51,613 nt of DNA from Eubacteriales bacterium OttesenSCG-928-N13 (GTDB lineage: Bacteria; Bacillota; Clostridia; Christensenellales; Aristaeellaceae), in NCBI GenBank assembly GCA_030265545.1, contig JAJDGF010000001.1, positions 1 through 51,613 of the forward strand, given 5' to 3'. Positions within the stretch are counted from its first letter, which is position 1; every line of letters starts with the position of its first letter. Positions 12,938 to 28,253 of the stretch are shown here, piece after piece. Under the pieces are notes generated by a model that was given only the letters and a program-made list of their open reading frames with translations, made no database searches and was not told the origin of the DNA. Position numbers and translations under genes: made by a program.

Positions 12938-14305
12938 TCATCCGATCTGGTGTATGCGTACCTGGCCGCTGAACGCGCTGTCGTGCGCCTCCAGCGCAAG
13001 AATCCCGTCCTCGTTGACGGGGTATACACGCGCGGCGTACGCCCATTCGTCGTTGATAAACACCTCTAAGATCGAGTGATCCACAAACGCGCGCAGCCGC
13101 AGCGGGCCTTCATACGCACCAAACCGCCCGAAAATGTCCGATTTGTTCATCTCGCCCAACAGCGAGCTTGCGCCGCGTGCAATGCGAAGTGTCTTGGCAT
13201 TTGGCGAGATGTGGATGCGCGTTGTTTCGCTCAAATCGCGTGCGCCCAGCACATTCAACTGGAACTCGCCCAGGCTGTCTACCTCCACCTCGATCTCGCA
13301 CGCGCCCGAGTGGGTGTCGAACTCGTGCCTTCCCGAGAATGCCTTGAACTTTTTGCTCTCCATGTCGCCGCGCAGCAAGCGCAGCTCGTCCGCCACCCGA
13401 AACGCGAGGCGGTTGTCTGCTGTGAGCGACACCTGGCGAGGCAGTGCGATCGCGCCCTGCCAATCGCCGTCGGTGATGATGTTTCCCCGGTCGTCCTCCC
13501 GCAGCCATGCCCACATGATCCGGCGCCCATCCGGCGCGTCGAACACGTTGGTGGCGCAGTAGCAGCCCCGGTCGATCTCCTCGCCGTGCCGGATGACGTT
13601 CAGCGTGTAGTCCTCGTTCATCGTGCCCACCGCGTAGCGCACGCAATCCTCAAGCTGCGTGTAGATCAGCGCCAGCTTGTCGCCGAACGGGATCACATTG
13701 GGGCACTCGTAGGTGACGCGCACGCCCTCGCTGAAAAACAGGCCCTTGTATGTCCAGTTGCGCATGTCCTCCGAACTGTACAGGTGGATCGCGGCGCGCC
13801 AGCCGTCCAGGTTCCCGGCGATGGCCATCAGCGTCTCGCCCCGGTGGCGGAACACGTATGGATCGCGCCAGTGCGTCAGAAAGCGGCCCTGCGCGCGCTC
13901 TCCCTCGGTGGATAACACTGGGTTTTCGGGGATCTGGGTCCAGGTGCGCATGTCGTGCGTGGTGGCGATCCACTGTTGGGCGCCGTCCACATGGCCGCGA
14001 GGCCCGCTGCCATAGTTGCCGATGCTGGTATAGAATAGCTCCACGCTGCCATGATGCTCATACGCGCACCCGGAAAAGCAGAGGTGCTCGCCGCGCGCCT
14101 TGTCGGGCGTGAGCGCGGGCGCCAGGTGATCCCAGTGCACCAGGTCATGGCTCACCGCGTGACCCCAGTGCAAATTTCCCCACTCCCAGCCCGTGGGGTT
14201 GTACTGGTAAAACAGGTGGTATTGCCCGTCAAAGTAGATGGGCCCGTTGGGGTCGTTGATCCACTGGCTGTTCGGCCGGAAATGATACGATGGTTTGTGC
14301 CGCAT
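12938..14305 (-). CDS. Glycoside hydrolase family 32 (beta-fructosidase)
   Basis: A GH32 enzyme of about 455 residues that hydrolyses beta-fructofuranosides such as sucrose, its phosphate or fructo-oligosaccharides. The nucleophile lies in WINDPNG (Asp18), the RDP transition-state motif is HWRDPYVF and the acid/base lies in YECPNV. The C-terminal beta-sandwich follows (FVDHSILEVFINDEWAYAAR). There is no signal peptide, so it works inside the cell on imported sugar. GGAGG is eight bases before the ATG at 14305. It is the last gene downstream of the ABC importer, after a terminator-like hairpin, so it may be transcribed at a lower level. The exact substrate is not readable from sequence. Confidence 0.93.
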   Translation of the reverse strand: MRHKPSYHFRPNSQWINDPNGPIYFDGQYHLFYQYNPTGWEWGNLHWGHAVSHDLVHWDHLAPALTPDKARGEHLCFSGCAYEHHGSVELFYTSIGNYGSGPRGHVDGAQQWIATTHDMRTWTQIPENPVLSTEGERAQGRFLTHWRDPYVFRHRGETLMAIAGNLDGWRAAIHLYSSEDMRNWTYKGLFFSEGVRVTYECPNVIPFGDKLALIYTQLEDCVRYAVGTMNEDYTLNVIRHGEEIDRGCYCATNVFDAPDGRRIMWAWLREDDRGNIITDGDWQGAIALPRQVSLTADNRLAFRVADELRLLRGDMESKKFKAFSGRHEFDTHSGACEIEVEVDSLGEFQLNVLGARDLSETTRIHISPNAKTLRIARGASSLLGEMNKSDIFGRFGAYEGPLRLRAFVDHSILEVFINDEWAYAARVYPVNEDGILALEAHDSAFSGQVRIHQIG

Positions 14306-14320
14306 GGCGCCTACCTCCAC

Positions 14321-14353
14321 AAAAAAGCGGGGCGAGGGAAGCCCCCGTCCCGC
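14321..14353 (-). terminator. Terminator or attenuator ahead of GH32
   Basis: On the minus strand a 12-base-pair GC-rich stem (10 Watson-Crick pairs, one wobble, one mismatch) is followed by TTTTTTG. It lies between the oxidoreductase and GH32 genes, so it probably reduces read-through. Confidence 0.6.
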
Positions 14354-14364
14354 TCGCTTCTTTG

Positions 14365-15447
14365 TTAGAACCTAGTCTTGATCTTCTTCTCCTGCCCCGA
14401 CTTGGACGACTCATACACGCTCTGGATGATCTCGATCACGTGCGCCTGGCGCGCGATGGAGCAGCCGCCGTCCGCGATGGGCGTGTTGCTCTCGACCGCG
14501 TCCAGGAACGCTTCCACGATGTCCACGTTCAGGTCGCTGGTGTCGGTCTTGATCACGTAGTTGTCACCAAACCCGAGGTATTCGATCGCCTCGCCCTCCA
14601 GCTTCGCGTACGGGGAGAACACCACCACGCGGTGCGCCTCATCACTGAAGTTGATGTAGATTACGCCCTTGGAGCCGTAGATGCGGAAGTCCCAGAAGCA
14701 CACACTCTTGTCGGCCGCGGTGCACCAGTTGGTGCGCAGCGTGGCCTGCATCCCGTTTTCCCAGGACATGATCACCGCGGCGCTGTCCTCCACCGAGGGC
14801 TTGATCGGCTCGCCCTTCAGGCTGACGCGCTCTTTTTGCAGCATCACAGTCTTGCCGTACACGGTATCGACCGGCCCGAACAGGTAGGTAAACATGCTGA
14901 TCGGGTACACGCCCAGATCGGCCAGCACGCCCCACTCGGCCAGCTTCTTGTCAAAGAACCACGGCGCATGCAGCGGGCCCTGGTGCGCAAACACGCCGTC
15001 TGCCGAGTTGACCTCGCCGATCACACCGCTCTGAATCATCTGTTTGACGGTATCCACATGCGGATAGGCGTCGTCCGGCAGCGCCATGAAAATGCCGCCC
15101 GTGCGATTGACCGTTTTGCGGATGCGCTCGGTGTCCTGGGTGTTGGTGCAGATGGGTTTTTCGCACAGCACCTGCTTGCCAGCCTCCAGCGCCTCGATCA
15201 CATACTGCGCATGGGAGGGATGGTATGTGGTCACCACGACCGCCTTCACCGCCGGGTCGTCCAGCAGCTGCTGCCAGCTGTCATACGCCTTCACGCCCAG
15301 TTCCGCAGCGGTCTGATCCATAAATGCACGGTTCATATCGTACAGGCCCACCAGTTCCAACCGATCCTTCAGCTTGGGGTACGAATAGAAATACCGAATG
15401 TGTGCGATGTCTCCGCAGCCCACCTGCGCAATGCCCAGTTTGCTCAT
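14365..15447 (-). CDS. Gfo/Idh/MocA-family oxidoreductase
   Basis: A 360-residue NAD(P)-dependent sugar oxidoreductase. The N-terminal Rossmann fold has the dinucleotide loop QVGCGDIAHIRY and the catalytic CEKP motif at about residues 93-96. The C-terminal domain includes DDAYPHVDTVKQM and GVLADLGVYPISMF. These enzymes oxidise or reduce a sugar hydroxyl, often at C2, C3 or C4. AGGAGG precedes the ATG. It lies between a TIM-barrel isomerase and GH32 in the ABC-importer transcript, and three relatives are in the opposite operon, so successive redox steps on one sugar are likely. Confidence 0.9.
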   Translation of the reverse strand: MSKLGIAQVGCGDIAHIRYFYSYPKLKDRLELVGLYDMNRAFMDQTAAELGVKAYDSWQQLLDDPAVKAVVVTTYHPSHAQYVIEALEAGKQVLCEKPICTNTQDTERIRKTVNRTGGIFMALPDDAYPHVDTVKQMIQSGVIGEVNSADGVFAHQGPLHAPWFFDKKLAEWGVLADLGVYPISMFTYLFGPVDTVYGKTVMLQKERVSLKGEPIKPSVEDSAAVIMSWENGMQATLRTNWCTAADKSVCFWDFRIYGSKGVIYINFSDEAHRVVVFSPYAKLEGEAIEYLGFGDNYVIKTDTSDLNVDIVEAFLDAVESNTPIADGGCSIARQAHVIEIIQSVYESSKSGQEKKIKTRF

Positions 15448-15498
15448 GTTCCATTCCTCCTAGATGTATGTATGATTGCCTTGCGGCGGGCAAATGTG

Positions 15499-16425
15499 TT
15501 AGCCCTCCGCGCCCTCTTCCTTGAGAATCCTTCTCATATAATCGAGCGATTCCTTGACATACTTTTGCGGGTTTGCCAGACCGCCCAGCTCCATTGAGAG
15601 GAAGCCGTTGTATCCCACCTCTTTGAGCGCGCGCACGAACCCGTTCCAGTCGATCACGCCCTGGCCCACCGGATAGCTGTAGCACAACATGCCATCGGTG
15701 TCCCGCAGGTGCACGTGGAAGATGCGCTCCCGAAGCTTGTACACCGCCCAAGGCAGGTATTCGCGCTGCATCATCTGCCACGCGGCGTCAAAGTTGGTGC
15801 CAAAATAGGGGCTGGGAACCCGATCGAATGCGCGCAGCATCGCGTCGGTGGTGCCCATCACCACATTGGCGTGGCCTTCCATCGCAAAGCGGATCTTGTA
15901 TTGCTCGCACAGCGCCACCAGTTTGGCAACCGATTCCAGATAGCGATCCCACAGCCCGGGTGCGTCGTAGTTTTGCGGCATAGAGAGCGTGTGCTTCGGC
16001 TCAAAGTTCTTGAAGCCGGGCATGTACGGGTGGATGGAGAGCGGCGGGTATGAAATGGGCGCCGTGAGCTCCACCGGCCAGTTGGACACGGTGTTGATGA
16101 TGTCGGTGCCCAGTTCCGCCGCCACGTCCAGCCCGCGGTGGAAGATGTCAATCGCCTGCTGGCGCTTTTGGGGATTGGGATCGATCAGCCCGACCACCGC
16201 GTACGCATACAGGATGAACTCGCTCAGCTGCATGCCGTAGCCGTCGATCATGGCCTTCAGGTTCTTGTTGCGTTCGGTGGTGTAGTATTCGTTCAGGTCT
16301 TCCGCCGTGAAAGCGATCAGTTCCAGCCCGTCAAACCCCATTTCGCCGATGGTCTTGACTGCTTCCTCATAGGGGGGTGCATAATGATTGATGGTAAAAC
16401 AACCGACTGCCGCGCCAATTTTCAT
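15499..16425 (-). CDS. Sugar phosphate isomerase/epimerase (xylose isomerase-like TIM barrel)
   Basis: A 308-residue AP-endonuclease-2/xylose-isomerase-like TIM barrel. Typical elements are MGFDGLELIAF at about 26-36, FAMEGHANV with a metal-binding glutamate, GTNFDAAW and IFHVHLRDTD with metal-binding histidines. Relatives isomerise or epimerise free sugars, inosose or ketoses. The ATG at 16425 follows AAGGGAG. It sits between the permease and oxidoreductase genes; pairing with a Gfo/Idh/MocA enzyme is a common arrangement for keto-sugar pathways. Confidence 0.88.
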   Translation of the reverse strand: MKIGAAVGCFTINHYAPPYEEAVKTIGEMGFDGLELIAFTAEDLNEYYTTERNKNLKAMIDGYGMQLSEFILYAYAVVGLIDPNPQKRQQAIDIFHRGLDVAAELGTDIINTVSNWPVELTAPISYPPLSIHPYMPGFKNFEPKHTLSMPQNYDAPGLWDRYLESVAKLVALCEQYKIRFAMEGHANVVMGTTDAMLRAFDRVPSPYFGTNFDAAWQMMQREYLPWAVYKLRERIFHVHLRDTDGMLCYSYPVGQGVIDWNGFVRALKEVGYNGFLSMELGGLANPQKYVKESLDYMRRILKEEGAEG

Positions 16426-16475
16426 TGTTGTGTTCACTCCCTTGTAGATGCCCTTTCGGGCAGTGTTGTGTCGTA

Positions 16476-17363
16476 TCAGCTCTTGACGCCGCCTGCCGTG
16501 AGTCCCATCACGATGTGCCGCTGAAAGAACAGCGCCAGCATCATGGGGATGATGGTCACCAGCACGCCGCCGGTCATCAGCAGCGGGTAGTCCATGCCGG
16601 CAAACTTGTCGCTGAACTCGCTCATCGCCACCGTGAATGTCTTGGTGGACTTGGAATTCATGAATACCATCGCGTATAACAGCTCGTCCCAGCACATCAG
16701 AAACACCAGCGAACCCACCGCGACAAAGCCCGGTTTTGCGAGCGGGATCACCACGCGCACAAATGCATCAAAGTGCGTGCAGCCGTCGATGCGCGCGGCG
16801 GATTCCAGATCGCGCGGGATCGACTGGTAATAGCCGTTGAACACCCAGATCGTGTAGGCCAGCACGTTGGACAGGTACAGCACCACCAGCACCGGCAGCT
16901 TGTCGATCAGGCCGCTCGCCTTGACCATCTGGTACAGCGGAACGATCAGCGCCACCGTGGGCAGCAGTTGGATAAACATTGCCAGCATCAGCATGAACTG
17001 TTTGCCCTTGAATGCCAGCCTGGCAAATGCGTAGGCGGCCATGCCTCCGATGAATAGCGCCAGCGCCGTGGTGGACAGCGTGACCATCACGCTGTTGATC
17101 AGCGCCCGGCTGAACACCTCTGATTTTGAAGAGATCCGCCCGCCGCTCAGCACCTTAGCGAACGAATCAAAGATTTGTTCGTAGCGCTCAAACGTCAGGT
17201 TTTTCGGCAGGGCGAGCGGGCCGGAGTTTAACAACTCCGCCTTGTCCACCACGGAAGAATACGCCATCCACAAAATCGGTATCAGCGTCCAGCATACCAG
17301 CAGCAGCACCGCGATATAGATGCCCACGCCCTTGATGAAGCGCCGCCCAGCAGATTGTCTCAT
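16476..17363 (-). CDS. ABC sugar transporter permease (MalG type)
   Basis: A 295-residue inner-membrane permease with about six membrane segments. The cytoplasmic EAA loop that docks the ATPase reads YQSIPRDLESAARIDGCTHF, the CUT1-family form. The C-terminal segment GGVLVTIIPMMLALFFQRHI is typical of MalG-like partners. It pairs with the permease 15 bases upstream. No ATPase gene is in the operon, so a shared housekeeping ATPase (MsmK/UgpC type) elsewhere in the genome is likely, as is usual in Bacillota. Confidence 0.93.
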   Translation of the reverse strand: MRQSAGRRFIKGVGIYIAVLLLVCWTLIPILWMAYSSVVDKAELLNSGPLALPKNLTFERYEQIFDSFAKVLSGGRISSKSEVFSRALINSVMVTLSTTALALFIGGMAAYAFARLAFKGKQFMLMLAMFIQLLPTVALIVPLYQMVKASGLIDKLPVLVVLYLSNVLAYTIWVFNGYYQSIPRDLESAARIDGCTHFDAFVRVVIPLAKPGFVAVGSLVFLMCWDELLYAMVFMNSKSTKTFTVAMSEFSDKFAGMDYPLLMTGGVLVTIIPMMLALFFQRHIVMGLTAGGVKS

Positions 17364-17378: not shown

Positions 17379-18293
17379 TTATGACGGGTCATCGGTGTGC
17401 AGCACCTTGAGGTACAGCACGGCAATCAGTAGAATGATCACCGATATAGCCACCGACAACGTGGCGCCCGTGCCATAGTTCAGGTTCTTGAAGATCGCGT
17501 AGTACGTGTAAAAGCTGATGGCCATCGTGCCGTTTCCGGGGCCGCCGCCGGTCATCATGAAGATGATGTCGAACACCTTGATGGTCTGTGTGGTGCGCAT
17601 GATGAGCAGCACCAGCAACAGCGGTTTCATCAGCGGCAGCTTGATGTGCCAGAACCGCTGAAATGCGTTGGCGCCATCCACGATGCCCGCCTCGATGGTG
17701 GATGCGTCGAGCGTCTGCAGCGCCGCGAGCAGCAACAGCACCGTCAGGGGAAGCATGCGCCAGGTGTCGGCCAGGATGATCATGTTGAGCGCGGAAAAGG
17801 CGGTCGCCATCCACACCACGATCTCCTTGATCACGCCCCACTGCAGCAGCACGCGGTTGAGCAAACCATAGTTCGCGTTCAGGATCCAGCCCCAAATCGC
17901 GGCATTGACCATGCTGGGAACCGCCCAGGGCAGCAACACAATCGCGCGCACAAACCCACGGCCCTTAAACTCCATGTTCAGCAGCAGCGCAATCAATGTG
18001 CCCAGCACGGTCTGCACCACCAGAGACACCACAGCGAAGTAGCCTGTGATCAACAGCGAATTGCCAAAGCCCTTGTTGGTGAACACTTCCACAAACTGGC
18101 GCACACCGGCAAAACCGTTCTTGGCCGTGTCCAGCAGGTTGTACCAAAAGAAGCTGAGTCCCACGTTGTACAACAGCGGATACACGTTCATGCCCAGTAT
18201 GATCACCATCGCAGGTGCGATCATCAACATGGCTGTGCGGCGCACAGAGGCCTCTCCGATGTACGCACCGCGCATCTTTTTCATTCGTCTCAT
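17379..18293 (-). CDS. ABC sugar transporter permease (MalF type)
   Basis: A permease of about 304 residues with six predicted membrane segments, the first near residues 20-40 after a short basic N terminus. The EAA loop reads LQTLDASTIEAGIVDGANAF and is followed by RFWHIKLPLMKPLL. It forms the channel with the downstream MalG-type protein. The start is the ATG at 18293 or the GTG just before it. A large hairpin separates it from the binding-protein gene, which would let the binding protein be made in excess. Confidence 0.92.
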   Translation of the reverse strand: MRRMKKMRGAYIGEASVRRTAMLMIAPAMVIILGMNVYPLLYNVGLSFFWYNLLDTAKNGFAGVRQFVEVFTNKGFGNSLLITGYFAVVSLVVQTVLGTLIALLLNMEFKGRGFVRAIVLLPWAVPSMVNAAIWGWILNANYGLLNRVLLQWGVIKEIVVWMATAFSALNMIILADTWRMLPLTVLLLLAALQTLDASTIEAGIVDGANAFQRFWHIKLPLMKPLLLVLLIMRTTQTIKVFDIIFMMTGGGPGNGTMAISFYTYYAIFKNLNYGTGATLSVAISVIILLIAVLYLKVLHTDDPS

Positions 18294-18328
18294 CACTTCT
18301 CTTTCTCACGCCATTTGCGCGACTTATG

Positions 18329-18390: not shown

Positions 18391-19635
18391 TTAGAACTTC
18401 GCAGACCACTCTTCGGCAGCCTTGAGCGCCTCATCCACACTCATGGTGCCCGCCAGCGCCTGGTTCAGATAGGACTGGAACTGCGCCGACCACTCGCTGT
18501 ACGCGGTGACCGTGGGGCGCTTGGTGGAGTAGTTGTACTCGTCTGCCATCACGGCAAACTCGGGGTTGGCCTTGAGCAGTTCTTCGTCCGCCAGCACCGA
18601 TTTGAGCACCGGCATGTTGCTGTAGGATTCGAGCGCATCCTTCTGGATGTCATAGGACACAGCCAGCTTCAGGAACTCAACCGCATGCTCGGGGTACTTG
18701 GTGGTATAGCTCACGCCCAACCCGCCGCCGCCAGTGACGGAGCCGGTCTTGGTGCCGTTGGCGCCGGGCACCAGCGCGATGTCCACATTGCCCGCGATGG
18801 TGGAGTTGTCAGGATCATTACAAAAACCGTATGCATAGGACCAGCACAGCACAAACGCGATGTCGCCCGCCATGAACGGATCCAGCACAACGCGGTCGCT
18901 GTAGGTGGAGGAGGCGGGATCTGCCCAGCCCTGCTTGGCGCCTTCCACCATGAAGTCCAGCGCCTGCTTTCCTTCCTCGCTGTTGAATGTCCACTTGCCA
19001 TCGGCATCCTGCCACGCGCCGCCAAAGCTGTCGAGCAGCACGCCGAACTCGCACACCACGCCTTCGGCCTGCAGGCCCGACCAGGCGATGCCGTACTTGC
19101 AGATGCCCTTGTCCACGACGGCCTTGCTCATCTCGGCCAGTTCATCCCAGGTGGTCGGCGCATGATCGTAGCCCGCCTGCTCCAGGTACGCCTTGTTATA
19201 GAACAGCCACTTGGAGTTGGTCAATGTCGGCACACCGGCCAACTCGCCGTTGATGGTGAACTCCTCGACATAACCGGGGAACAGCGCGTCCAGCTCTTCC
19301 TGCGAGAAGTACTGGGTCACCGGCTGTGCGATCTTGGCGGACAGGAACTCGGCCGGCCAGATCGTATCCACCGAGAACAGATCAATCTGCGTGCCACCCA
19401 GCACCATCGTTGTGATCTTGTCGTGCATGTTGTCGTAGGCCACATCAATGATTTCCACGTCGATGCCGTACTTCTCGTAGAACTTGTCCGCAACCATTTC
19501 GTACTGGGCCAGGCAGCCGTTGTCGGTCACCAGGATCAGTGTTTCGGGCTTTTCGCCTTCGGCGAAAGCCACCATGCAACACTGGGATGCCAGCAGTGCG
19601 ACAACAAGAGCCAGGCAGATTAAGGTCTTCTTCAT
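18391..19635 (-). CDS. ABC transporter sugar-binding lipoprotein/protein (family 1)
   Basis: A 414-residue extracellular solute-binding protein. The N terminus MKKTLICLALVVALLASQCC is a signal peptide; the CC near residue 19-20 could be a lipobox-like attachment site, although the following residues are not classical. Ligand-binding family motifs include DLFSVDTIWPAEFL, GVPTLTNSKWLFYNK and TTWDELAEMS. It captures sugar outside the membrane for the two permeases downstream. GAGGAGGG precedes the ATG. It is the first gene of the leftward operon, behind a promoter region carrying the regulator-type half-sites. Confidence 0.93.
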   Translation of the reverse strand: MKKTLICLALVVALLASQCCMVAFAEGEKPETLILVTDNGCLAQYEMVADKFYEKYGIDVEIIDVAYDNMHDKITTMVLGGTQIDLFSVDTIWPAEFLSAKIAQPVTQYFSQEELDALFPGYVEEFTINGELAGVPTLTNSKWLFYNKAYLEQAGYDHAPTTWDELAEMSKAVVDKGICKYGIAWSGLQAEGVVCEFGVLLDSFGGAWQDADGKWTFNSEEGKQALDFMVEGAKQGWADPASSTYSDRVVLDPFMAGDIAFVLCWSYAYGFCNDPDNSTIAGNVDIALVPGANGTKTGSVTGGGGLGVSYTTKYPEHAVEFLKLAVSYDIQKDALESYSNMPVLKSVLADEELLKANPEFAVMADEYNYSTKRPTVTAYSEWSAQFQSYLNQALAGTMSVDEALKAAEEWSAKF

Positions 19636-19763: not shown

Positions 19764-20612
19764 TTACTGGTGTAGCTCGCGGTACTCGGTGGGCGTCACG
19801 CCGCAGTGCTGTTTGAACACCCGATTAAAGTAGGTAACGTTGTCAAACCCGACATTCATCGCAATCACCGTAACCTTCTCCGCGGTGATCAAAAGCTGTG
19901 CCTTGGCTTCGTTGATACGCACGCTGTTGACATATTCCGAGAACGTTTTGCCCATCACGCGCTTGAACAGTTTGCAAAACCGCGCGCTGCACATATACAA
20001 CATTTGGGTCATCTCGCTGAGGCGGATGTCGTTTCGATAGTTGGTGTGCACGTACCGAAGCACCGGCTGGATCAGGTCCATTTCGCGCTGGCGCTCCGCG
20101 AAAGAATATGTCATTTCGATGTGTTTTTGCTGGAACAACAGCGCAAACAGGCACAGGATCATCGCGTGCGCGCGCAGCTCAAAACTGAGATCCTTATTCC
20201 AGTAAGCGCTTGAAAATTCGTCGAAAATCTGAAGCAGAGGATCGCCATCCACCAATTGAATCTTACGTGTAAACGCCACTTCATTCTCGAGAAAGGCCTT
20301 GAAATACTTGACATTCGCGTAATCCATACTGGGAGGGCACAGAAGCTCATTCGTTACCTGCAGCACGTCCCAGCTCGCGCCGCGCGTGAGCGGCTTGGTC
20401 TGGTGCGGCTCCTTGGCATTGATGATCACCAGTTCGTTTGGGCCGCACTCGAACGCCTCGTCCATCAATTCGACGGAGTATCTTCCTTCGCGCCCCAATA
20501 GCAGCTCCAAGTGATTGTGCCAGTGCAGGTCGGAGCCGTAGTCGACCGTCGCAAGTGCAAACGGGAGCTGCAGCCCACGTTCCTTGAAATACAAATAGGG
20601 TTGAAAAAACAT
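19764..20612 (-). CDS. AraC-family transcriptional regulator
   Basis: A 282-residue regulator. The N-terminal cupin-like sugar-binding domain includes WHNHLELLLGREG and ELVIINAKEPHQTKPL. The C-terminal AraC double helix-turn-helix spans about 175-282 (SARFCKLFKRVMGKTFSEYV, then GFDNVTYFNRVFKQHCGVTP). It lies between the two divergent catabolic operons and is the obvious local regulator. GGAGGGATGATCGC precedes the ATG. Its own promoter carries a palindromic operator at the start site, which suggests autoregulation. The inducer is unknown but is probably the imported sugar or a pathway intermediate. Confidence 0.93.
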   Translation of the reverse strand: MFFQPYLYFKERGLQLPFALATVDYGSDLHWHNHLELLLGREGRYSVELMDEAFECGPNELVIINAKEPHQTKPLTRGASWDVLQVTNELLCPPSMDYANVKYFKAFLENEVAFTRKIQLVDGDPLLQIFDEFSSAYWNKDLSFELRAHAMILCLFALLFQQKHIEMTYSFAERQREMDLIQPVLRYVHTNYRNDIRLSEMTQMLYMCSARFCKLFKRVMGKTFSEYVNSVRINEAKAQLLITAEKVTVIAMNVGFDNVTYFNRVFKQHCGVTPTEYRELHQ

Positions 20613-20660
20613 GCGATCATCCCTCCTTAGTAACAGCCCGTGCGATTCATGACGCTATCC

Positions 20661-20681
20661 ATAACAAGTGTGAATTGTTAT
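20661..20681. promoter_or_regulatory. Palindromic operator 1 (ATAACAA-N7-TTGTTAT)
   Basis: A perfect seven-base inverted repeat with a seven-base spacer, immediately downstream of the -10 element of the regulator gene, so a bound protein would overlap the transcription start. The same left half and spacing recur at 20836-20856. Confidence 0.55.
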
Positions 20682-20682
20682 C

Positions 20683-20711
20683 ATTGTAAGGGATATGTCA
20701 AGATGCGTCAA
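20683..20711 (-). promoter_or_regulatory. Promoter of the AraC-family regulator gene
   Basis: On the minus strand TTGACG (20706-20711) and TACAAT (20683-20688) are separated by 17 bases, a good vegetative promoter. Operator 1 lies two bases beyond the -10 element. Confidence 0.65.
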
Positions 20712-20835
20712 CCAATTTGCATGAAGATGGAAGCGCGATCCGTAGCGGCGTGCCGCAATTGTGCTTCTATTATTTTTCTATCCAGAACGGTATCGCCAAA
20801 ACACATAAATTTGGACTGCGGTAGAAATTCGTTCA

Positions 20836-20856
20836 ATAACAATTTCTATTTGTTCT
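20836..20856. promoter_or_regulatory. Palindromic operator 2 (ATAACAA-N7-TTGTTCT)
   Basis: Same left half and seven-base spacing as operator 1, with one changed base in the right half. It lies 68 bases before the first start codon of the glycyl-radical operon. A weak TTGGAC (20812) with CAATAA 17 bases later would overlap it, but I do not regard that promoter as secure. Confidence 0.5.
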
Positions 20857-20923
20857 GGACGAGCAAGCCGCTTTTTTGCACAATGAGCGTATACAAGCCG
20901 GAATTCTGAGTGAGGTGTCTGAC

Positions 20924-21748
20924 ATGAAGAGGCTGCCCATTGGATATCAGCTGTACTCAGTCCGCGAGGAGGCGAGGCGCGATTTCCCCGGTACGCTGTC
21001 GCGCATTGCAATGATGGGCTACGATGGAGTGGAATTGGCCGGGCTGCATGGTCTTTCCGCCTCGCGCGCTCGCGGGGCACTGGATGAGTGCGCGCTGACT
21101 GCGATCTCAAGCCATGTGCCGCTGGACGCGATCAGGGCCGATCCGAATCAGGTGATCAAGGACCATCTGACGCTGGGTTGCCAATACATCGCGGTACCCT
21201 TTTTGGATGAGCCGGGCCGGCCCGGCATGCCTGGATTCGCTCGCACGCTGCGCCAGATGATCGAGTTCGGCTCGATGTGCCAGGATGCAGGAATCCAGCT
21301 CTTGTACCACAATCACGACTTTGAATTCGTGCGGGTGTCCGGTCAGTATGGGCTGGATTTCATGTATGATTGCATGCCAGACCGGCTGCTGATGGCGGAG
21401 CTGGATACCTGCTGGATCAAGTACGCCGGAGAGGATCCGGCCGACTATGTGACCAAGTACGCCGGGCGCTGTCCGGTGGTGCACCTGAAGGACTACGTGG
21501 GCACGAACACGGGTGGGCCCGCGCCCTATGCGCTGATCTCGGCGGATGGTGGCGCGACGGGCGGAGACGCTTCGGAATTTGAATTCCGCCCGGTCGGTCA
21601 CGGCTGCCAGGACATTCCGTCCATCGTGGATGCCTCGATCAACGCGGGGGCACATTGGTTTGTTGTCGAACAGGATCTGTCGGTCGGCCGCACGCCGCTG
21701 GCGGCAGCCAAGCTCAGCATCGAGTACCTCAAGCACATCGGACAGTGA
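20924..21748 (+). CDS. Sugar phosphate isomerase/epimerase (TIM barrel)
   Basis: A 274-residue xylose-isomerase-like TIM barrel, first gene of the glycyl-radical operon. Typical parts are IGYQLYSVREE at the N terminus, MMGYDGVELAGLHG at about 30-43, LLYHNHDFEF with the metal-site histidines and a glutamate, MAELDTCWIKYAG and VVHLKDY. The profile is close to enzymes annotated as inosose dehydratase or hydroxypyruvate isomerase-like epimerases. The ATG at 20924 follows GAGG at good spacing; an upstream ATG at 20876 lacks such a site. It differs clearly from the isomerase of the leftward operon, so the two probably catalyse different steps. Confidence 0.88.
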   Translation: MKRLPIGYQLYSVREEARRDFPGTLSRIAMMGYDGVELAGLHGLSASRARGALDECALTAISSHVPLDAIRADPNQVIKDHLTLGCQYIAVPFLDEPGRPGMPGFARTLRQMIEFGSMCQDAGIQLLYHNHDFEFVRVSGQYGLDFMYDCMPDRLLMAELDTCWIKYAGEDPADYVTKYAGRCPVVHLKDYVGTNTGGPAPYALISADGGATGGDASEFEFRPVGHGCQDIPSIVDASINAGAHWFVVEQDLSVGRTPLAAAKLSIEYLKHIGQ

Positions 21749-21784: not shown

Positions 21785-22918
21785 ATGGGTAAGAAGTATC
21801 GGGTAGCTGTTATCGGTACCGGCATGATCGCCAACGCGGCGCACATTCCGGCCTACAAGTTCTGGAAGGACGACTTCGAGCTGGTGGCCTGTGCCGACAT
21901 TCGGAAGGACGCCGCCCAAGAGACGGCGGATCGGCATGGCATTCCCAAGGTATACCAGGACGCCTACGCGATGCTGGAGGAGGTGCGCCCCGATTTCGTA
22001 TCGGTGTGCACGCCCAACGCGTTTCATAAGGAGTATGCACTGGCGGCGTTCAAGGTGGGTGCCAACGTGTTCTGCGAGAAGCCGCTGGCGCTGAAAAGGA
22101 AGGATGCCATCGAGCTCTACAAGGCGGCGGACGAGGCCGGCGTGCACCTGTTTGTGACCCAGAGCCTGCGCTTCCTCACCAACTATAAAGAAGCCAAGGA
22201 GCTGGCGCAAAGCGGCGAACTGGGCGAGGTCTATTATGCCGATGTGGAGCTGATCCGGCGGCGCGGCATTCCCAAGTGGGGCATGTTCCACATCAAGGAA
22301 AAGAGCGTTGGCGGCTGCTTCTGCGATCTGGGTGTGCACATCACCGACTACATCATGTACCTGACCGGAAACCCCAAACTCAAATCGGTCTCGGGCAGCG
22401 CGGTCACCCGCATCGTGCACCAGCCGTCCGAAAAGGGCGTGCGCTATTCGATCGCCGAGAGCGGCGCACCCTCCGGGCTGTTTACGCCGCGCCCGTTCGA
22501 TATGAATGAGTTTGACGTGGAGGAATTCAGCAACGGCTATATGCGTTTTGAGAACGGCATGACGGTCAACTTCAAGATCTCCTGGGCGCTCAACCTGCCA
22601 AACAGCGAGTGCGTGCGGCTGTCAGGCGACAAGGGCGGTCTGGTGATGAGCAACTCGGGCGACGCGGTCAAGCTCGTGACGACGATCGGCAGCAACCAGG
22701 CGGATTTGACCCCGCGCATCTTCCCCGACCCGTACCATGAGGCGTCCGATTTCTATGGGCACATCCACGTATTCGAGCACGCGCTCAAGTTCCTCAAGGG
22801 CGAACAGGATGAGGTCATCAAGCGCGAGGAAGTGATCAATGTGGCTTCCGTGATCGAGGCGTTCTACAAATCGGCGCAGCTGGGACGCGAAGTGAGCTTT
22901 GAGGAATTGGAACAATAA
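21785..22918 (+). CDS. Gfo/Idh/MocA-family oxidoreductase
   Basis: A 377-residue NAD(P)-dependent sugar oxidoreductase. The Rossmann loop is VIGTGMIANAAHIP, the catalytic motif FCEKP is at about residues 98-102, and VGGCFCDLGVHITDYIMYLT in the C-terminal domain carries the conserved aspartate and histidine of the active site. GGGGAGG precedes the ATG. It is the first of three consecutive paralogues, which share their fold but differ widely in sequence, so a gene family built for successive or alternative sugar oxidations is likely rather than a recent duplication. Confidence 0.92.
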   Translation: MGKKYRVAVIGTGMIANAAHIPAYKFWKDDFELVACADIRKDAAQETADRHGIPKVYQDAYAMLEEVRPDFVSVCTPNAFHKEYALAAFKVGANVFCEKPLALKRKDAIELYKAADEAGVHLFVTQSLRFLTNYKEAKELAQSGELGEVYYADVELIRRRGIPKWGMFHIKEKSVGGCFCDLGVHITDYIMYLTGNPKLKSVSGSAVTRIVHQPSEKGVRYSIAESGAPSGLFTPRPFDMNEFDVEEFSNGYMRFENGMTVNFKISWALNLPNSECVRLSGDKGGLVMSNSGDAVKLVTTIGSNQADLTPRIFPDPYHEASDFYGHIHVFEHALKFLKGEQDEVIKREEVINVASVIEAFYKSAQLGREVSFEELEQ

Positions 22919-22949: not shown

Positions 22950-24077
22950 ATGAAGCAGTATCGTGTTGTAATCATCGGTTTTGCGCACATGCACATCAAC
23001 GATGTCGCCAGCCACTTTTATGAGAATCCGCGCACTGAGCTGGTGGCCTGCGCGGACACCGTGCCCGCCATGCCCGAACTGCGCGCCGCGCCCTACACCC
23101 GCGCGTGGAACAAGCGCTTTTGCATGGACAACTTCAAGATTCCCCGCGAGTACCAAGACTACCAGGAGATGCTCGACAAGGAGAAGCCGGATATCGCGAT
23201 TGTGACCAGCGAAAATGTGCTGCACCGCGAAATTGTGGAGCAGTGCGCGCGCCGTTCCGTGCATGTCTGTGTGGAAAAGCCGATGGCGGTATCTCTTTCC
23301 GACGCGTTACAGATGCAGCGCGCCGCCGAACAGTACGGCGTGAAGCTGCTGGTCAACTGGCCGATCACCTGGTTGCCCGTGTACCGCACCCTGAAGCAGA
23401 AGCTGGACGAGGGCGCGATCGGGCGGCTGATCGAATTCAAAATCCGCACCTCACACACCGGCCCGCTGGGCGCGGGCGCCGCCCACAAGGGCGTGAACGA
23501 GACCGCCCAGCCCATGACCGGCCAGGAGAAGGCGCACACATGGTGGCACCAGCTGAACCGGGGCGGCGGCGCGATGTACGATTTCTGCTGTTACGGCAGC
23601 ATGCTCAGCCATTGGTTGGCCGACCAGGAGGCCCAGTCCGCGTTCGGGCTGCGTGCCAACCTGATGAGCCAGTTCGGCGACGCGGACGACACCGCGGTGA
23701 TGGTGGTGCGCTTCCCAAACTGCGTGGCGTTGATTGAAACCAGTTGGACCACGCCCAAAGAACTCATTCCCTCCAACATCCCCATGCTGTACGGCACGGA
23801 AGGCGCGATGACGCTGGTCAATGTGGATGGACGCGACGCGGTGAAGGTGCTTCGGCCCAACCAAGAGGACGCGCTGTTCTTTACGGACGAGCCCGCGCAG
23901 AAGGATCGGGACATCGCCTGCGCGTTCGTGCATCACCTGGACACCGGCGAGGAGGTGCATCCCACGCTGTCGCTGAAGCGCAACATCTCCGCAATGCGCA
24001 TTCTGGACGCGGGCGTGCGCTCGGCGGGCTCGGGCCAGCAGGAAATGACGGCCAGCGAATACTGGCAGATCGGCTGA
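22950..24077 (+). CDS. Gfo/Idh/MocA-family oxidoreductase
   Basis: A 375-residue family member with VVIIGFAHMHINDVA at the nucleotide loop (GFAHMH instead of the usual GxGxxG, a subfamily variant), VCVEKPMAVS as catalytic motif and GGGAMYDFCCYGSMLSHWL in the second domain. The ATG at 22950 follows AGGAGG. The HMH sequence near residue 11 is seen in a subgroup of these enzymes and may point to an unusual cofactor or substrate setting. It lies between two paralogues in the glycyl-radical operon. The precise reaction is not readable. Confidence 0.88.
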   Translation: MKQYRVVIIGFAHMHINDVASHFYENPRTELVACADTVPAMPELRAAPYTRAWNKRFCMDNFKIPREYQDYQEMLDKEKPDIAIVTSENVLHREIVEQCARRSVHVCVEKPMAVSLSDALQMQRAAEQYGVKLLVNWPITWLPVYRTLKQKLDEGAIGRLIEFKIRTSHTGPLGAGAAHKGVNETAQPMTGQEKAHTWWHQLNRGGGAMYDFCCYGSMLSHWLADQEAQSAFGLRANLMSQFGDADDTAVMVVRFPNCVALIETSWTTPKELIPSNIPMLYGTEGAMTLVNVDGRDAVKVLRPNQEDALFFTDEPAQKDRDIACAFVHHLDTGEEVHPTLSLKRNISAMRILDAGVRSAGSGQQEMTASEYWQIG

Positions 24078-24102: not shown

Positions 24103-25212
24103 ATGAAGCATCAATTTGCGGTGCTTGGGCTTGGACACTGGTACAGCGCGTATCCGCTGATTGGCGCGATCCAATCCCTGCCCGATACCCAGGTGAAATG
24201 GATCGTGGACGAGAACATCGGCCAGGCCCGGCAGACTGCGCGCATGTTCAGTGTGGAACGGCATTCCGCCGACTACATGGACGCGCTTCTGGATCCAGAG
24301 GTGGACGCGGTGCTGATCGCAACGCCCACCTACCTGCACGAGCAGCTCGCGGTGGATGCGGCCCGGCACAAAAAGCACATTCTGCTGGGAAAGCCGGTGG
24401 CACGCACGCTGGCAAGCGCCGAGCGCATTCGCCAGGCGGTGAAGCAGAGCGGTGTGACGCTGCTCGGATACGGCGCCGGGCCCAACCCAACCGACCCGCT
24501 GATTCAGCTTGTGCGCGAGGGCACGGTGGGCACCCCCTACGCGGTCACCAGCTCGTTTCGCGCCAGGCTTCCGCTCAGGGCGCCGGGCGACACGGATCCG
24601 GGCTGGTTCGTGGATTCGGGCAAGGCGTCCGGCGGTGCATTCATCGATCACGCGATCTACATGGCTACGCGCATGCGCGCGCTGTTTGATAGCCCTGCCA
24701 AGAGCGTGTATGCGCGCATGCGCAAAATGGCGCGGCCAGAGCTTCAGGTGGAGGACTATGGCGTGGCGATCATCGAGTATGAGAGTGGTGCGCTGGCCAC
24801 GGTAGAGTCGAGCTTTGGCGCGACCGAATACTCCCAGACCGCGCTGGTACTCAGCGCCACCCAGGGCGAAATCGGCATCACAGACGACGAGTTGCGCATC
24901 ACGCGTGGGCGCGAGAGCCGCATCACCAAGCTTACCGGCCCCAATCCGGTGCTGCTCACCATCGCGGATGTGATGCGCGATCCGTTCGGTGCGAGGGAGA
25001 CCGGGTACTATCAATCGGTGATTCAGGAGTTTGTGGACGTGATCGACCATGGCGCGCCCAGCCTCAACACGCTTGAGAACGGAATTGAAGGGCTGATGGT
25101 GTGCCTGGCCGCCTACAAATCCCTTGAGATCGGGCAACCGGTCGCGCTGCCGCTCAAGGAGGACGTGGACGTGCAGTCCATCATGGGAAGGCTGGATGTA
25201 TTTCATGGATAA
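24103..25212 (+). CDS. Gfo/Idh/MocA-family protein with altered EKP motif (GKP)
   Basis: A 369-residue member with VLGLGHWYSAYPLI at the nucleotide loop. Its catalytic motif reads LLGKPVART, so the conserved glutamate of EKP is glycine while the lysine remains. The second domain (SGGAFIDHAIYMATRM) keeps aspartate and histidine. The lysine normally acts in proton relay, so activity may be retained; the glutamate loss could alter pKa or substrate choice. The last 17 bases overlap the start of the activase gene, so translation is coupled to the radical enzyme system. Confidence 0.88.
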   Translation: MKHQFAVLGLGHWYSAYPLIGAIQSLPDTQVKWIVDENIGQARQTARMFSVERHSADYMDALLDPEVDAVLIATPTYLHEQLAVDAARHKKHILLGKPVARTLASAERIRQAVKQSGVTLLGYGAGPNPTDPLIQLVREGTVGTPYAVTSSFRARLPLRAPGDTDPGWFVDSGKASGGAFIDHAIYMATRMRALFDSPAKSVYARMRKMARPELQVEDYGVAIIEYESGALATVESSFGATEYSQTALVLSATQGEIGITDDELRITRGRESRITKLTGPNPVLLTIADVMRDPFGARETGYYQSVIQEFVDVIDHGAPSLNTLENGIEGLMVCLAAYKSLEIGQPVALPLKEDVDVQSIMGRLDVFHG

Positions 25213-26044
25213 CGCGAGCTGCACTGGCATTGTCACCGACATACAGCGCTTCAGCGTGCACGATGGATTTGGCATCCGCACCTCGGTGTTTTTGAAGGGC
25301 TGCAACATGCGCTGCGCCTGGTGCCACAACCCGGAGACCATCTCATTTGAACCCGAACTACTGCTGGATCCGGCCAAATGCATCGGGTGCGGACAGTGCG
25401 ATCAGGGCTGCTATTCTGGCGCGCGGCGGCTGGTGGGGCGAGAGATGAGCGCAGAGAAGGTGATGCGCGAGGTATTGATGGATCGTGCCTACTACGAGGG
25501 CGGAGGGGGCATGACATTGACCGGCGGCGAGCCCAGCTGCCAGTCCGATTTCGCACGCGGCCTCATGCAATTGGCGCGCCAAGAGGGCATTCATACCGCC
25601 ATCGAAACCAACATGAGCCTGCCTGTGGACCTGTTGTTTCCGGTGTTGTCGCTGTGCGATTTGCTGCTGTGCGACGTGAAGCTGTGGGACGAGCAGGCGC
25701 ATCAAAAGTGGACCGGCGTGGGCAACAGGCTGATCCGCAGCAACATACAGGCCGCGGACGAGTTGAACATCCCGATCGTGGTTCGGACCCCGCTGGTGGC
25801 GGGTGTAAACGATGAGCCCGAGCAGATCGGCGCCATCGCGCAGTTCGCTGCGGGCCTCAAGAACCTGCTGGCATATGAGCTGCTGCCCTATCATGCGCTG
25901 GGCACCGCCAAGTTGATTGAAGGGGCTTCGCCGCAACAGCGGTTTGAGGCGCCGGACAAGCAGCGCATATTGCGCCTGGCACAGGCGGCGCGCGAGGCGC
26001 GCGTGCCCGTGCGTGTCGCTGGTGTTGCGCTGGAAGGAGTGTGA
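25196..26044 (+). CDS. Glycyl-radical enzyme activase (radical SAM)
   Basis: A radical-SAM enzyme of about 282 residues that uses a 4Fe-4S cluster and S-adenosylmethionine to place the glycyl radical on its partner. The cluster motif CNMRCAWC is at 36-43. One auxiliary ferredoxin-like motif, CIGCGQCDQGC at 62-72, is present, where many activases have two. TLTGGEP at 107-112 is the SAM-binding GGE region. Two starts are possible, ATG 25196 (GGGAAGG four bases upstream) and ATG 25205; both overlap the preceding gene. The partner gene starts four bases after its stop. Confidence 0.93.
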   Translation: MYFMDNASCTGIVTDIQRFSVHDGFGIRTSVFLKGCNMRCAWCHNPETISFEPELLLDPAKCIGCGQCDQGCYSGARRLVGREMSAEKVMREVLMDRAYYEGGGGMTLTGGEPSCQSDFARGLMQLARQEGIHTAIETNMSLPVDLLFPVLSLCDLLLCDVKLWDEQAHQKWTGVGNRLIRSNIQAADELNIPIVVRTPLVAGVNDEPEQIGAIAQFAAGLKNLLAYELLPYHALGTAKLIEGASPQQRFEAPDKQRILRLAQAAREARVPVRVAGVALEGV

Positions 26045-26048
26045 GAAC

Positions 26049-28253
26049 ATGGCCATCACGGATCAGGAGCGCTACCGGGCGTTGAAGCAGACCAAACTGA
26101 ATCACACCCGCGAGAAATGCGCGCAGCAGGGCTACATGGATGCCGATGACTACGGCTCTGTGCCGCTGCCCGACGGATACAAGTTTGTGCCCATTCCGCC
26201 GGATGGAGACTTCTATGGCTACGCGGGCTGGGCGGAGAATTTCGAGGCGTTTATTGACAACCACCCGGTCTATGTGGATCGGCTCGAGCTGCTGTGTGGG
26301 CGCTGGTGCGACAAGCTGACCGCCTATCGCAAGCCCGATACGGACGTGCCGCTGGAGCAGCGCGCGTTCCCGGGCGATCGGTTCCCCTACGACGAGCTGC
26401 TGGCGCCGGTGTATCTGTATGGGCTGGACACCGCCATCGGTTCGGACACCCACTTCTGTTCGGACTACCGCATCGGTCTGCGATTGGGCTGGGGCGGGTT
26501 TCTAAAGGCCATTCGCCAGGGTCGCGTGCGGCACGCGCAAGACCCGGAAAAGCGCGCGTTTTACGATGCCGAGGAAAAAACTGTGCTTGCGATCCAGCGC
26601 TGGATCGCAAGGCACATCGCCGAGATCAAGCGACTGCTGGTCGCGGAGCAGGATCCGGCGCTCAGAATCAGCCTGCAAAAGATGCTCGAGTGCAACCGGA
26701 ATGTGATCGAAAAACCGGCGTCGAGCTTCCTGGAGGCGTGCCAGTACATGGCTTGGTTCAACAGCGTTTCGCGCATGTACGACCGGGATGGCGCGGGCTG
26801 CGATCTGGATCAGATCCTGCTGCCTTACTATGAAAAGGACATCGAGCGTGGCGTGCTCACGCGGGATGAGGCGCGATTCATCCTGGCCAATCTGTTGCTG
26901 GTCGACACACACTACTATCAGCTGTCCGGATGCGACCTGGACGGGAATGACATGACCAACGAGCTGTCCTACCTGACGCTGGAGGCTGCGCACGAGCTGA
27001 ACATCGCGGCCAACCTGACCGTGCGCTACCACCGCAATATTGACCCCGACTTCTTCCGGCAGGCGGTGGCCTACAACTTCAACGATCGCAACGGCTGGCC
27101 GCGCTTTTCTGGGCACGAGGGTATGATGAAATACCTGAACAACCAGGGCATCGACCAGGCTACGGCACTCGAACGGATCGCAGTGGGCTGCGGCTGGAGC
27201 GCGGTGCCCGGGCGCGAGCTGCCGCTGAACGATTTGGTCAAGATCAACTGTGCGCGCGTGTTCGAGGTGGCGCTCAATGAGATGATGCTGAGCGCCGCCG
27301 AAGCGCCGAAGGACGTGTATTATCCCGCGTATGAGCCCAGCCTGGAGCGGCTGAGCCATCTGTTCAAAAAACACCTGGCGCGCGCGGTGGATGGCCTGGC
27401 GAAGTGCCTCGAGTTCCACCTCAGCCACATGCACCAAGTAATGCCCGAGCTGGTGATGAACCTACAGATGCGCCACTGCATTGAAGAGGGGTTGAATGTG
27501 TCGCAGTGCGCCGAGCTATATACGCTGTGCGTGGATGGCGTGGGCCTGGGCACCGTGGCCGATTCATTCGCCGCGATCGAGCAGCGCGTGGTCGTCGAGA
27601 AAAAGCTCAGCTGGGAGCAGCTGTTCCATGCGCTGCGCACCAATTTCAAGGATGATGAGCGCACTCGGCTGATGCTGAAGAACTCCGAGCGCTACTGCCA
27701 GGGCGGAAGCCTGGGCGACAAGTGGGCCGAGGCCGTCACCCAAGACTTCACCGCGCTTGTGCGCGCGCAGCCGATGAGCGAAGGCAAGCAACTGGTGCCC
27801 GGCTGGTTTTCCTGGTCCAAGACCATCCATTTTGGACAACAGGTGGGCGCCACGCCCAACGGCCGCGGAGCCTACGAACCGCTCACCCACGGCGCCAATC
27901 CCACGCCCGGCTTCCGGCGCGACGGTGCGCCCACCGCGCTCGCCAACGGCATCGCGATGGTGCAGCCCGGCTACGGCAATGCTGCGCCGCTGCAGATTGA
28001 GTTTGATCCCAAAATCAGCGCCGAAGAGGGTGGCATCGAGCGCGTGGCCCAACTGATCAAAGGGCACCTGGACCAGGGCGGCACGCTCATCAACATCAAT
28101 GTGCTGGACAGGGATGTGCTGATGCAGGCGCACGAGAATCCGGACAGCCACCCCGATTTAGTGGTGCGCGTAACCGGGTTCACCGCCTATTTCTGCACGC
28201 TTTCTCCTGAGTTTCGCCAACTGGTGGTGGATCGCTTCCTCGACGGACTGTGA
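26049..28253 (+). CDS. Glycyl radical enzyme (PFL family), unusual active-site motif
   Basis: A 734-residue glycyl radical enzyme. The radical site is RVTGFTAYF with Gly710, close to the usual RV.GY. The thiyl-radical cysteine should be Cys381 in VGCGWSAVPGRE. In the dehydratases, lyases and decarboxylases I know, this loop reads GCVE with a catalytic glutamate two residues on; here tryptophan takes that place, and it is not the PFL pair CC either. The N-terminal PFL domain is otherwise complete. AAGGAG precedes the ATG and the activase is adjacent. No microcompartment genes accompany it. It may belong to an uncharacterised class acting on a sugar derivative; substrate and reaction are unknown. 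Confidence 0.93.
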   Translation: MAITDQERYRALKQTKLNHTREKCAQQGYMDADDYGSVPLPDGYKFVPIPPDGDFYGYAGWAENFEAFIDNHPVYVDRLELLCGRWCDKLTAYRKPDTDVPLEQRAFPGDRFPYDELLAPVYLYGLDTAIGSDTHFCSDYRIGLRLGWGGFLKAIRQGRVRHAQDPEKRAFYDAEEKTVLAIQRWIARHIAEIKRLLVAEQDPALRISLQKMLECNRNVIEKPASSFLEACQYMAWFNSVSRMYDRDGAGCDLDQILLPYYEKDIERGVLTRDEARFILANLLLVDTHYYQLSGCDLDGNDMTNELSYLTLEAAHELNIAANLTVRYHRNIDPDFFRQAVAYNFNDRNGWPRFSGHEGMMKYLNNQGIDQATALERIAVGCGWSAVPGRELPLNDLVKINCARVFEVALNEMMLSAAEAPKDVYYPAYEPSLERLSHLFKKHLARAVDGLAKCLEFHLSHMHQVMPELVMNLQMRHCIEEGLNVSQCAELYTLCVDGVGLGTVADSFAAIEQRVVVEKKLSWEQLFHALRTNFKDDERTRLMLKNSERYCQGGSLGDKWAEAVTQDFTALVRAQPMSEGKQLVPGWFSWSKTIHFGQQVGATPNGRGAYEPLTHGANPTPGFRRDGAPTALANGIAMVQPGYGNAAPLQIEFDPKISAEEGGIERVAQLIKGHLDQGGTLININVLDRDVLMQAHENPDSHPDLVVRVTGFTAYFCTLSPEFRQLVVDRFLDGL

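Follow-up and report, generated by a model that had tools for sequence, protein, structure and literature searches.

A glycyl-radical enzyme family with tryptophan in place of the usual glutamate, encoded with putative 3-keto-glycoside enzymes in Eubacteriales bacterium OttesenSCG-928-N13

The window analysed here is a stretch of 51,613 nucleotides (positions 1 to 51,613 of contig JAJDGF010000001.1, assembly GCA_030265545.1) from Eubacteriales bacterium OttesenSCG-928-N13, whose genome assembly comprises 1.96 Mb in 182 contigs and is 75% complete. Within it, positions 12938-28253 hold a cluster of 13 genes, every one open without an internal stop, and the expected Pfam domains were found above cut-off (GH32N/C, SBP, two BPD_transp_1, AraC HTH, two AP_endonuc_2, four Gfo/Idh/MocA, Radical_SAM, and PFL-like with Gly_radical). 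The minus strand carries, in order, genes for an AraC-family regulator, a solute-binding protein, two permeases, a xylose-isomerase-like barrel (TIM1), a Gfo/Idh/MocA oxidoreductase (Gfo1) and a GH32 hydrolase, and the plus strand carries a second barrel (TIM2), Gfo2, Gfo3, Gfo4, an activase and a glycyl-radical enzyme (GRE). Since the plus-strand genes are nearly gapless (gaps of 37, 32 and 26 nt, an overlap of 8 nt and a gap of 5 nt, from coordinates), they fit a single transcript. An earlier, sequence-only reading of this region had listed the same gene set, which stood, except that its single radical enzyme proved to be two plus-strand genes, the activase (25205-26044) and the GRE (26049-28253). 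That reading had also held that the four oxidoreductases are mutually diverged, suggesting distinct steps, and that kinase, aldolase and microcompartment genes are lacking. Both statements were borne out: pairwise identity among the four Gfo proteins is 22-28%, as expected of several distinct enzymes, Pfam assigned none of the 13 products a kinase or aldolase domain, and no bacterial microcompartment (BMC) shell protein (PF00936) was found in the window's own genome, at its 75% completeness (positive control, 2/14). A BMC-associated GRE was therefore rejected. No importer ATPase gene was found within the cluster.

GREs catalyse key steps in the anaerobic metabolism of the gut. Among their C-O, C-N and C-S lyases, most of those characterised have the same base, the Glu found two residues past the radical Cys (Cys+2). 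The cluster GRE, of 734 aa, matched the PFL-like domain at 300 bits and Gly_radical at 58 bits, both above cut-off, and its activase, a radical SAM protein with the motif CNMRCAWC, matched Pfam Radical_SAM and NCBIfam TIGR02494 (273 bits; cut-off 174). The features of the superfamily are present, namely both domains, the RVxG[FY] glycyl loop, the radical Cys and the adjacent activase. By alignment, the glycyl-radical residue is G710 (RVTGF; codon at 28176-28178, plus strand), and the codons of C381-G382-W383 (27189-27197, plus strand) place a Trp next but one to the radical Cys, where Glu is usual. The radical Cys was present in 81/81 family rows and the Gly motif in 80/81, the remaining row being gapped, while Trp at Cys+2 (GC[N/H/S/G]W, hence GCxW) occurred in all 93 aligned members, i.e., 81/81 rows of the named set, including the window, and 12/12 further rows. 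In the set used for the tree, this residue was Trp in 55/55 family members and Glu in 21/22 control GREs (Gln in one) as well as in YbiW and PflD, and the five solved GREs aligned with the cluster GRE all read Cys-Val-Glu. Alignment with glycerol dehydratase, which reproduced the known numbering exactly, paired C433, H164 and D447 with C381, H135 and D395, and E435 with W383. H164 and D447 are substrate-binding residues of glycerol dehydratase, and E435 is its Glu at Cys+2. In isethionate lyase, the Glu is described as required for deprotonation of the substrate hydroxyl, by analogy with other GRE C-O/C-N lyases (PMC6453916, available excerpt). A different Glu, E390 (PGxE; codon at 27216-27218, plus strand), nine residues past the Cys, is invariant in the family; Glu stands there in only 2/22 control GREs, and the position is T in glycerol dehydratase and PflD (profile alignment).

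An AlphaFold (AF2) model of the GRE (pLDDT 90.2, pTM 0.91) aligned with GREs of the PDB at TM about 0.8. VIA-align placed PflD first (Z 36.5, root-mean-square deviation 3.1 over 687 residues), within 1 of glycerol dehydratase and others and hence in a tie, and by profile the closest solved GRE was E. coli PflD (E 6.9e-84). The GRE scored under the curated cut-off of all NCBIfam GRE families (HypD, CutC, HPAD, IAD, sulfopropanediol dehydratases, PFL, PRK09983 and PFL2-3), the best being TIGR01774 at 258 versus 678 bits, and its assignment to any of these was therefore rejected. We also built a tree from 55 family members, 22 GREs from outside the family (taken from related genomes and from the surroundings of two family loci) and E. 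coli YbiW, PflD and PflB. Results showed that 55/55 members fell into one clade with a support of 0.90, or 1.0 when the sister sequence L171, which retains Cys-Trp-Glu, was added. GRE matches in 100 related genomes formed two groups, with 37-48% identity near full length versus 23-31% over parts. These comparisons of sequence show that GCxW GREs are a distinct monophyletic family, which is apparently uncharacterised.

PflD and YbiW of E. coli open 1,5-anhydrohexitol-6-phosphates (PMC12441222, available excerpt, reporting Ma et al. 2024, JACS; titles of PDB 8id0 and 8id7). These 1,5-anhydromannitol/anhydroglucitol-6-phosphate lyases share the GRE fold, the radical Cys and Gly and, as predicted here, a sugar-type substrate with the cluster GRE; however, they are only about 22% identical to it and read GCVE/GCIE where its family reads GCxW. 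Moreover, the PflD/YbiW-type operon of E. coli has a phosphotransferase system, the aldolase FsaB and GldA, whereas none of these domains, nor any phosphorylation gene, was found among the 13 cluster products. B12-independent glycerol dehydratase and the other Glu-type GREs (CutC, HypD, propanediol dehydratase, IslA, HpsG) share the fold, radical Cys, Gly and equivalents of H164/D447, but Glu435 of glycerol dehydratase is Trp383 in the cluster GRE, which lies far under every NCBIfam equivalog cut-off. Pyruvate formate-lyase (PFL) shares the fold and likewise has a residue other than Glu at Cys+2 (in E. coli PflB, Ser), but it carries a Cys-Cys pair (ACCVS in PflB), the adjacent catalytic cysteines C418/C419, where the cluster GRE reads GCGW, and the score is 69 bits against a cut-off of 994.

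To describe the distribution of the family, named genomes were scanned with an alignment as query (a single-protein query gave no match) and the best 80 of 422 relatives were kept; the remainder may hold other GRE families. These 80 loci encode GREs with 45-58% identity to that of the cluster. Ruminant, horse or rabbit gut was the stated sample for 30 of them, and others belong to Planctomycetota, Lentisphaeria, Chthonomonas, Chlorobiota and Paenibacillus; isolates with relatives are Neglectibacter timonensis SN17, Acutalibacter sp. 1XD8-36 and Paenibacillus sp. S150. A family member was present in 25/300 genomes of the window's own taxonomic family, and only 2 other genomes of the 398 searched in a phylum-wide sample had one, suggesting that the GCxW family is rare outside its usual lineages. 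The controls were 20 loci with GREs outside the GCxW family, drawn from the window's taxonomic family and order; 17 of them had at least 5 kb of total flank. Short flanks excluded eight named loci, one further family locus and three controls from the flank counts, and GRE rows <680 aa were omitted from the 80%-identity set. No family count includes L038 (a 182-aa fragment), and both L035 and L037 are incomplete.

At least one Gfo gene lay within 5 kb of the GRE in 55/72 named loci, with at least two in 48 and at least four in 17, compared with 1/17 control GREs (0/17 on the same strand). After clustering at 80% identity, at least one was found in 29/40 and at least two in 24/40. The activase was directly upstream of the GRE in 70/80 relatives, and the order Gfo2-Gfo3-activase-GRE occurred in 26/80 (medians of the gaps, by open-reading-frame ends: 0, -4 and -13 nt); relatives scoring >200 bits were found for Gfo2 at 39/80 GRE loci and for Gfo3 at 44/80. 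In the window's taxonomic family, 14 of the 300 genomes had Gfo2 (E<=1e-70) and 14 had Gfo3 (E<=1e-50), with the GRE co-present in 10 of each 14 (Fisher p = 1.7e-8 without the window's own genome). Because these genomes share ancestry and scoring covered no more than a few candidates in each, the p-value is indicative only and the Gfo counts are lower bounds. Considering that the same gene order is found in other genomes, the right-hand gene set is not explained by chance.

The search for this neighbourhood in other genomes, which the earlier reading had proposed, thus divided the cluster: Gfo2, Gfo3, activase and GRE recur together, but conservation does not extend to the importer/GH32 operon on the left. 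A GH32 gene was near only 1/80 named GRE loci (L073, a weak match). Relatives of TIM1 (26-29% identity) lie within the GRE operon of L102, L103, L113, L116 and L117, and importers lie inside the GRE operons of L102, L116 and L117; as judged from gene content, the link between the two halves is only via TIM1. The whole cluster as one conserved unit was rejected, since Gfo1, GH32, Gfo4 and TIM2 are absent near other GREs, one TIM2 relative and the weak GH32 match aside. In L105, L106 and L115 (Lentisphaeria, Victivallales), a TIM-Gfo fusion protein precedes the activase and GRE; its TIM domain had no significant solved relative (best E 0.02).

Other genes were also observed beside GRE operons. 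A FAD-dependent oxidoreductase (PF12831 in the L061 copy) was near the operon in 12/80 loci (L056, L061, L064, L067, L072, L073, L075, L079, L082, L087, L095 and L106). Paralogous proteins of 300-360 aa (cluster K24) and a 337-344 aa protein (K27) are encoded at L061 13216-17516, L070 11921-16200 and L044 771-4388, and the L061 copies scanned, one K24 and one K27, matched no Pfam family. In L076 (7058-9202) and L077 (7041-9176), a second, different GRE, of GC-G-E type in L076, lies directly upstream of the activase and GCxW GRE, suggesting that one activase may serve two GREs. L066 (13404-16451) holds another activase with a PFL-like protein that gave no Gly_radical match and reads RIHG for RVxG, adjoining a FGGY kinase gene.

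The genes at the start of the plus-strand transcript resemble enzymes of known chemistry. TIM2 (20924-21748, plus strand) was barely above the AP_endonuc_2 cut-off (33.7 versus 31.1 bits), and its best solved match was AtOGE (8bvk, E 1.9e-33), an O-glycoside beta-eliminase acting on C3-oxidised glucosides whose metal and catalytic residues are His132, His134, Asp163, His189 and Glu233 (PMC10628242, in the excerpt available). All AtOGE metal ligands and the catalytic His are retained in the alignment (His132/His134 as H129/H131 of TIM2, with equivalents of Asp163, His189 and Glu233), so that TIM2 looks like a 3-keto-glycoside beta-eliminase. Gfo2 (21785-22918, plus strand) matched DgpA over its full length (7xr9, E 1.1e-46) and was 31% identical over 376 aa to E. 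coli YcjS (E 2e-56), which is annotated as a D-glucoside 3-dehydrogenase. DgpA, a puerarin 3-dehydrogenase, has bound NAD and can use 3-oxo-glucose as acceptor (PMC11239390, available part). This clear homology, at ~30% identity, predicts Gfo2 to be a C3 glycoside dehydrogenase of the DgpA/YcjS type. Gfo3 (22950-24077, plus strand) was assigned to Gfo/Idh/MocA by Pfam, as was Gfo4 (24103-25212, plus strand), whose best solved match was 1,5-anhydro-D-fructose reductase (2glx, E 1.9e-18). By family only, TIM1, Gfo3, Gfo4 and Gfo1 are candidates for a hydratase or 3-keto-sugar reductase.

Levoglucosan is degraded by oxidation, elimination, hydration and reduction through Gfo and TIM-type enzymes, the elimination product being 1,5-anhydro-hex-1-en-3-ulose (PMC7676230, available excerpt). 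The DgpABC, AtOGE and LgdA-C pathways share with the cluster a Gfo enzyme, predicted here to be a 3-dehydrogenase, and a TIM barrel of metal-dependent eliminase type, and the levoglucosan locus also has an ABC importer; however, the available excerpts of their accounts mention no GRE, and no DgpB/C-type C-glycoside eliminase was identified in the cluster. The E. coli ycj cluster (YcjM-W) likewise shares an importer (YcjNOP), an enzyme of 3-dehydrogenase type (YcjS), a barrel (YcjR, 19% identical to TIM1) and a glycoside-splitting enzyme, but it has phosphorylases for GH32, YcjQ for the further Gfo enzymes, and no GRE. YcjQRS is reportedly a 3-keto-glycoside route. Considering the likeness of Gfo2 to DgpA/YcjS and the intact AtOGE residues of TIM2, these results suggest 3-keto-glycoside chemistry and no unprecedented sugar route. 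The earlier claim that no described pathway has this set of genes therefore holds in part: we found no paper on this module, but 3-keto-glycoside routes (DgpABC, LgdA-C, YcjQRS) explain its Gfo and TIM part. In the open-access literature searched, no report joined a GRE to Gfo enzymes or 3-keto-sugar chemistry; subscription papers lay mostly outside this search, and a published, unlabelled similarity-network cluster is possible. The GRE fold and the chemistry of its partners are known; the new part is the GRE family, which has no assigned reaction, in a gene combination of which we found no description.

The minus-strand genes encode uptake and hydrolysis. The beta-fructosidase-like GH32 protein (12938-14305; 455 aa) matched GH32N at 238 bits and GH32C at 70 bits, scored under the NCBIfam cut-offs for BfrA and ScrB, and showed no signal peptide in its sequence; it contains the GH32 motifs WINDPNG, WRDP and ECP. 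Gfo1 (14365-15447; Pfam) is lineage-specific: a search of 299 other genomes from the window's taxonomic family gave nothing at E<=1e-60. In TIM1 (15499-16425; Pfam, 132 bits), E183/D213/H239/E279 were kept in 6/6 aligned sequences, and Foldseek placed psicose/tagatose 3-epimerases on top, a weak support since the model had a pLDDT of only 72; from its residues and fold, TIM1 resembles a ketose 3-epimerase with a Glu-Asp-His-Glu site. The importer comprises ABC sugar permease 2 (16476-17363; 30% identical to YcjP) and permease 1 (17379-18296; 29% identical to YcjO), both BPD_transp_1, and the solute-binding protein (18391-19635; SBP_bac_1, 140 bits). The AraC-family regulator (19764-20612; HTH_18 and AraC_binding) lies between the two transcripts, and the divergent intergenic region (20613-20923, AraC start to TIM2 start) holds two overlapping sigma-70-like sites on the minus strand (20711-20674), which were not above chance over the whole region. 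A hairpin with 20 pairs lies just beyond GH32 (12885-12928) and a second beyond the GRE (28570-28599); terminator-like sites overall were not above shuffled expectation. On its right the cluster is flanked by a transposase, and directly to its left lies a prophage remnant (window 723-10378) that encodes a serine integrase, tail proteins, a head maturation protease, a portal protein and a Doc-like toxin. Further right, window 33823-40594 is a likely exopolysaccharide cluster (MBOAT acyltransferase, GT2 glycosyltransferase with a PilZ domain, CotH-like protein), and window 42288-47133, with ParB/N6-N4 methyltransferase, Fic protein and amidoligase genes, is possibly a second mobile region.

We tentatively propose, with a probability of roughly 0.4, that the enzymes of the cluster break down fructosylated plant glycosides anaerobically and without phosphorylation, and that the GRE, lacking the usual Glu base, uses a keto- or anhydro-sugar that carries no phosphate. 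The substrates, the sequence of steps and the reaction of the GRE are inferred as follows. The ABC importer would take in a fructosylated glycoside and GH32 would then trim off the fructose. Gfo2, as an enzyme of YcjS/DgpA type, would oxidise C3 of the remaining glycosyl unit, and TIM2, as one of AtOGE type, would beta-eliminate the aglycone to leave a 1,5-anhydro-enolone or 3-keto-sugar, which TIM1 and the other Gfo enzymes may reduce or epimerise. Finally, once its partner radical-SAM enzyme has activated it, the GRE would open or cleave the unphosphorylated keto/anhydro-sugar, the radical passing from Gly710 to the Cys381 thiyl and on to a substrate C-H. By analogy with PflD/YbiW, we favour beta-scission of the ring C-O bond in an anhydro-keto-sugar: a C-H flanked by the ring oxygen and the ketone would give a stabilised radical able to expel the ring C-O bond base-free. 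Since the Glu that deprotonates the substrate hydroxyl in dehydratase GREs is Trp here, that base would not be needed in the radical step, and base-free expulsion fits both the loss of the Glu and the kinship with PflD/YbiW.

Several observations weigh against this route. Gfo genes lay within 5 kb of only 4/11 GREs at the further loci, which are mostly from the window's own taxonomic family, and in 15/25 GRE-bearing genomes neither Gfo2 nor Gfo3 was matched at the thresholds applied (<=6 candidates scored per genome, so that the matches are a lower bound). TIM2 lies outside the conserved module, with none near other GREs of the 80 apart from one relative; Gfo4 was not matched at E<=1e-20 by any gene surrounding these 80, and its own likeness to 1,5-anhydro-D-fructose reductase is weak. 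No Gfo gene was nearby in 17/72 named loci, and at some sampled Gfo-free loci the neighbours were instead GH78, GH88, GH106 or GH130 genes: two GH78-type rhamnosidases and a melibiase-like protein in L071, GH88 in L066, GH130 and a sulfatase in L045, and, among the further loci, GH106 in L036. In L029, also one of the further loci, they were a uronate isomerase, a mannonate dehydratase and a mannitol-dehydrogenase-type reductase, which suggests that the product there is an ordinary hexuronate and not a ring-opened sugar. We regarded the purine-biosynthesis genes that follow the GRE in L083-L085 as unrelated. Therefore, the glycosidase and uronate neighbours of Gfo-free GREs tie the GCxW family to plant carbohydrate use generally. 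They would also suit a GRE that itself cuts a glycosidic or ether bond, i.e., a radical deglycosylase or lyase for recalcitrant plant glycosides, with the Gfo and TIM enzymes processing the sugar afterwards; the apparent entry of the L029 product into the hexuronate pathway and the minimal units of TIM-Gfo fusion, activase and GRE speak for it as well. However, TIM2 and Gfo2 already supply a non-radical cleavage route in the window, and C-O lyase GREs rely on the Glu that the GCxW GRE is missing, and we consider this quite unlikely.

We hold it just as improbable that the GRE is an ordinary dehydratase type acting on a sugar or polyol with E390 replacing the lost Glu. H135 and D395 do align with the substrate-binding H164 and D447 of glycerol dehydratase, and E390 is invariant; yet it stands nine residues past the Cys, at the T position of glycerol dehydratase and PflD, and the Trp at +2 is no less invariant. 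A somewhat better case, though still an unlikely one, can be made for two unrelated operons, in which case a left-hand unit for uptake of sucrose or fructooligosaccharides came to adjoin the right-hand GRE module by chance or transfer, given that Gfo1 has no close relative in the 299 family genomes, that GH32 is near a single named GRE, and that prophage and transposase genes flank the cluster. Against this, a single AraC gene lies between both transcripts, TIM1 relatives occur inside the GRE operon in five loci, and three of these operons (L102, L116 and L117) contain importers. Least probable, in our estimate, is a cyclitol pathway with the Gfo proteins as inositol dehydrogenases, the barrels as inosose isomerases and the GRE acting on inosose or methyl-inositol. 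Several dehydrogenases and isomerases are typical of inositol stereoisomer use, and IolG is among the top NCBIfam matches of all four Gfo proteins, as IolE is for both barrels, but these scores are all far under cut-off, Gfo2 is much nearer YcjS/DgpA, no IolC/IolD/IolB-type domain was found among the 13 products, and a fructosidase is a poor fit.

Beyond this cluster, it is conceivable, though doubtful, that GCxW GREs are a new mechanistic class which, without a Glu base, acts on unphosphorylated 3-keto- or 1,5-anhydro-sugars from Gfo/TIM enzymes, and that they form a radical branch of the 3-keto-glycoside pathway in herbivore-gut Clostridia, Lentisphaeria, Planctomycetota and others, by which plant glycosides would be fermented before phosphorylation. 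A widespread Trp-for-Glu family, in a recurring operon with 3-keto-glycoside enzymes, predicts an undescribed radical reaction, and the GCxW operon, with three to six genes and relatives in named isolates, is a compact system in which to test it. The GCxW GRE may also account for the use, by anaerobes, of plant glycosides on which hydrolases perform poorly.

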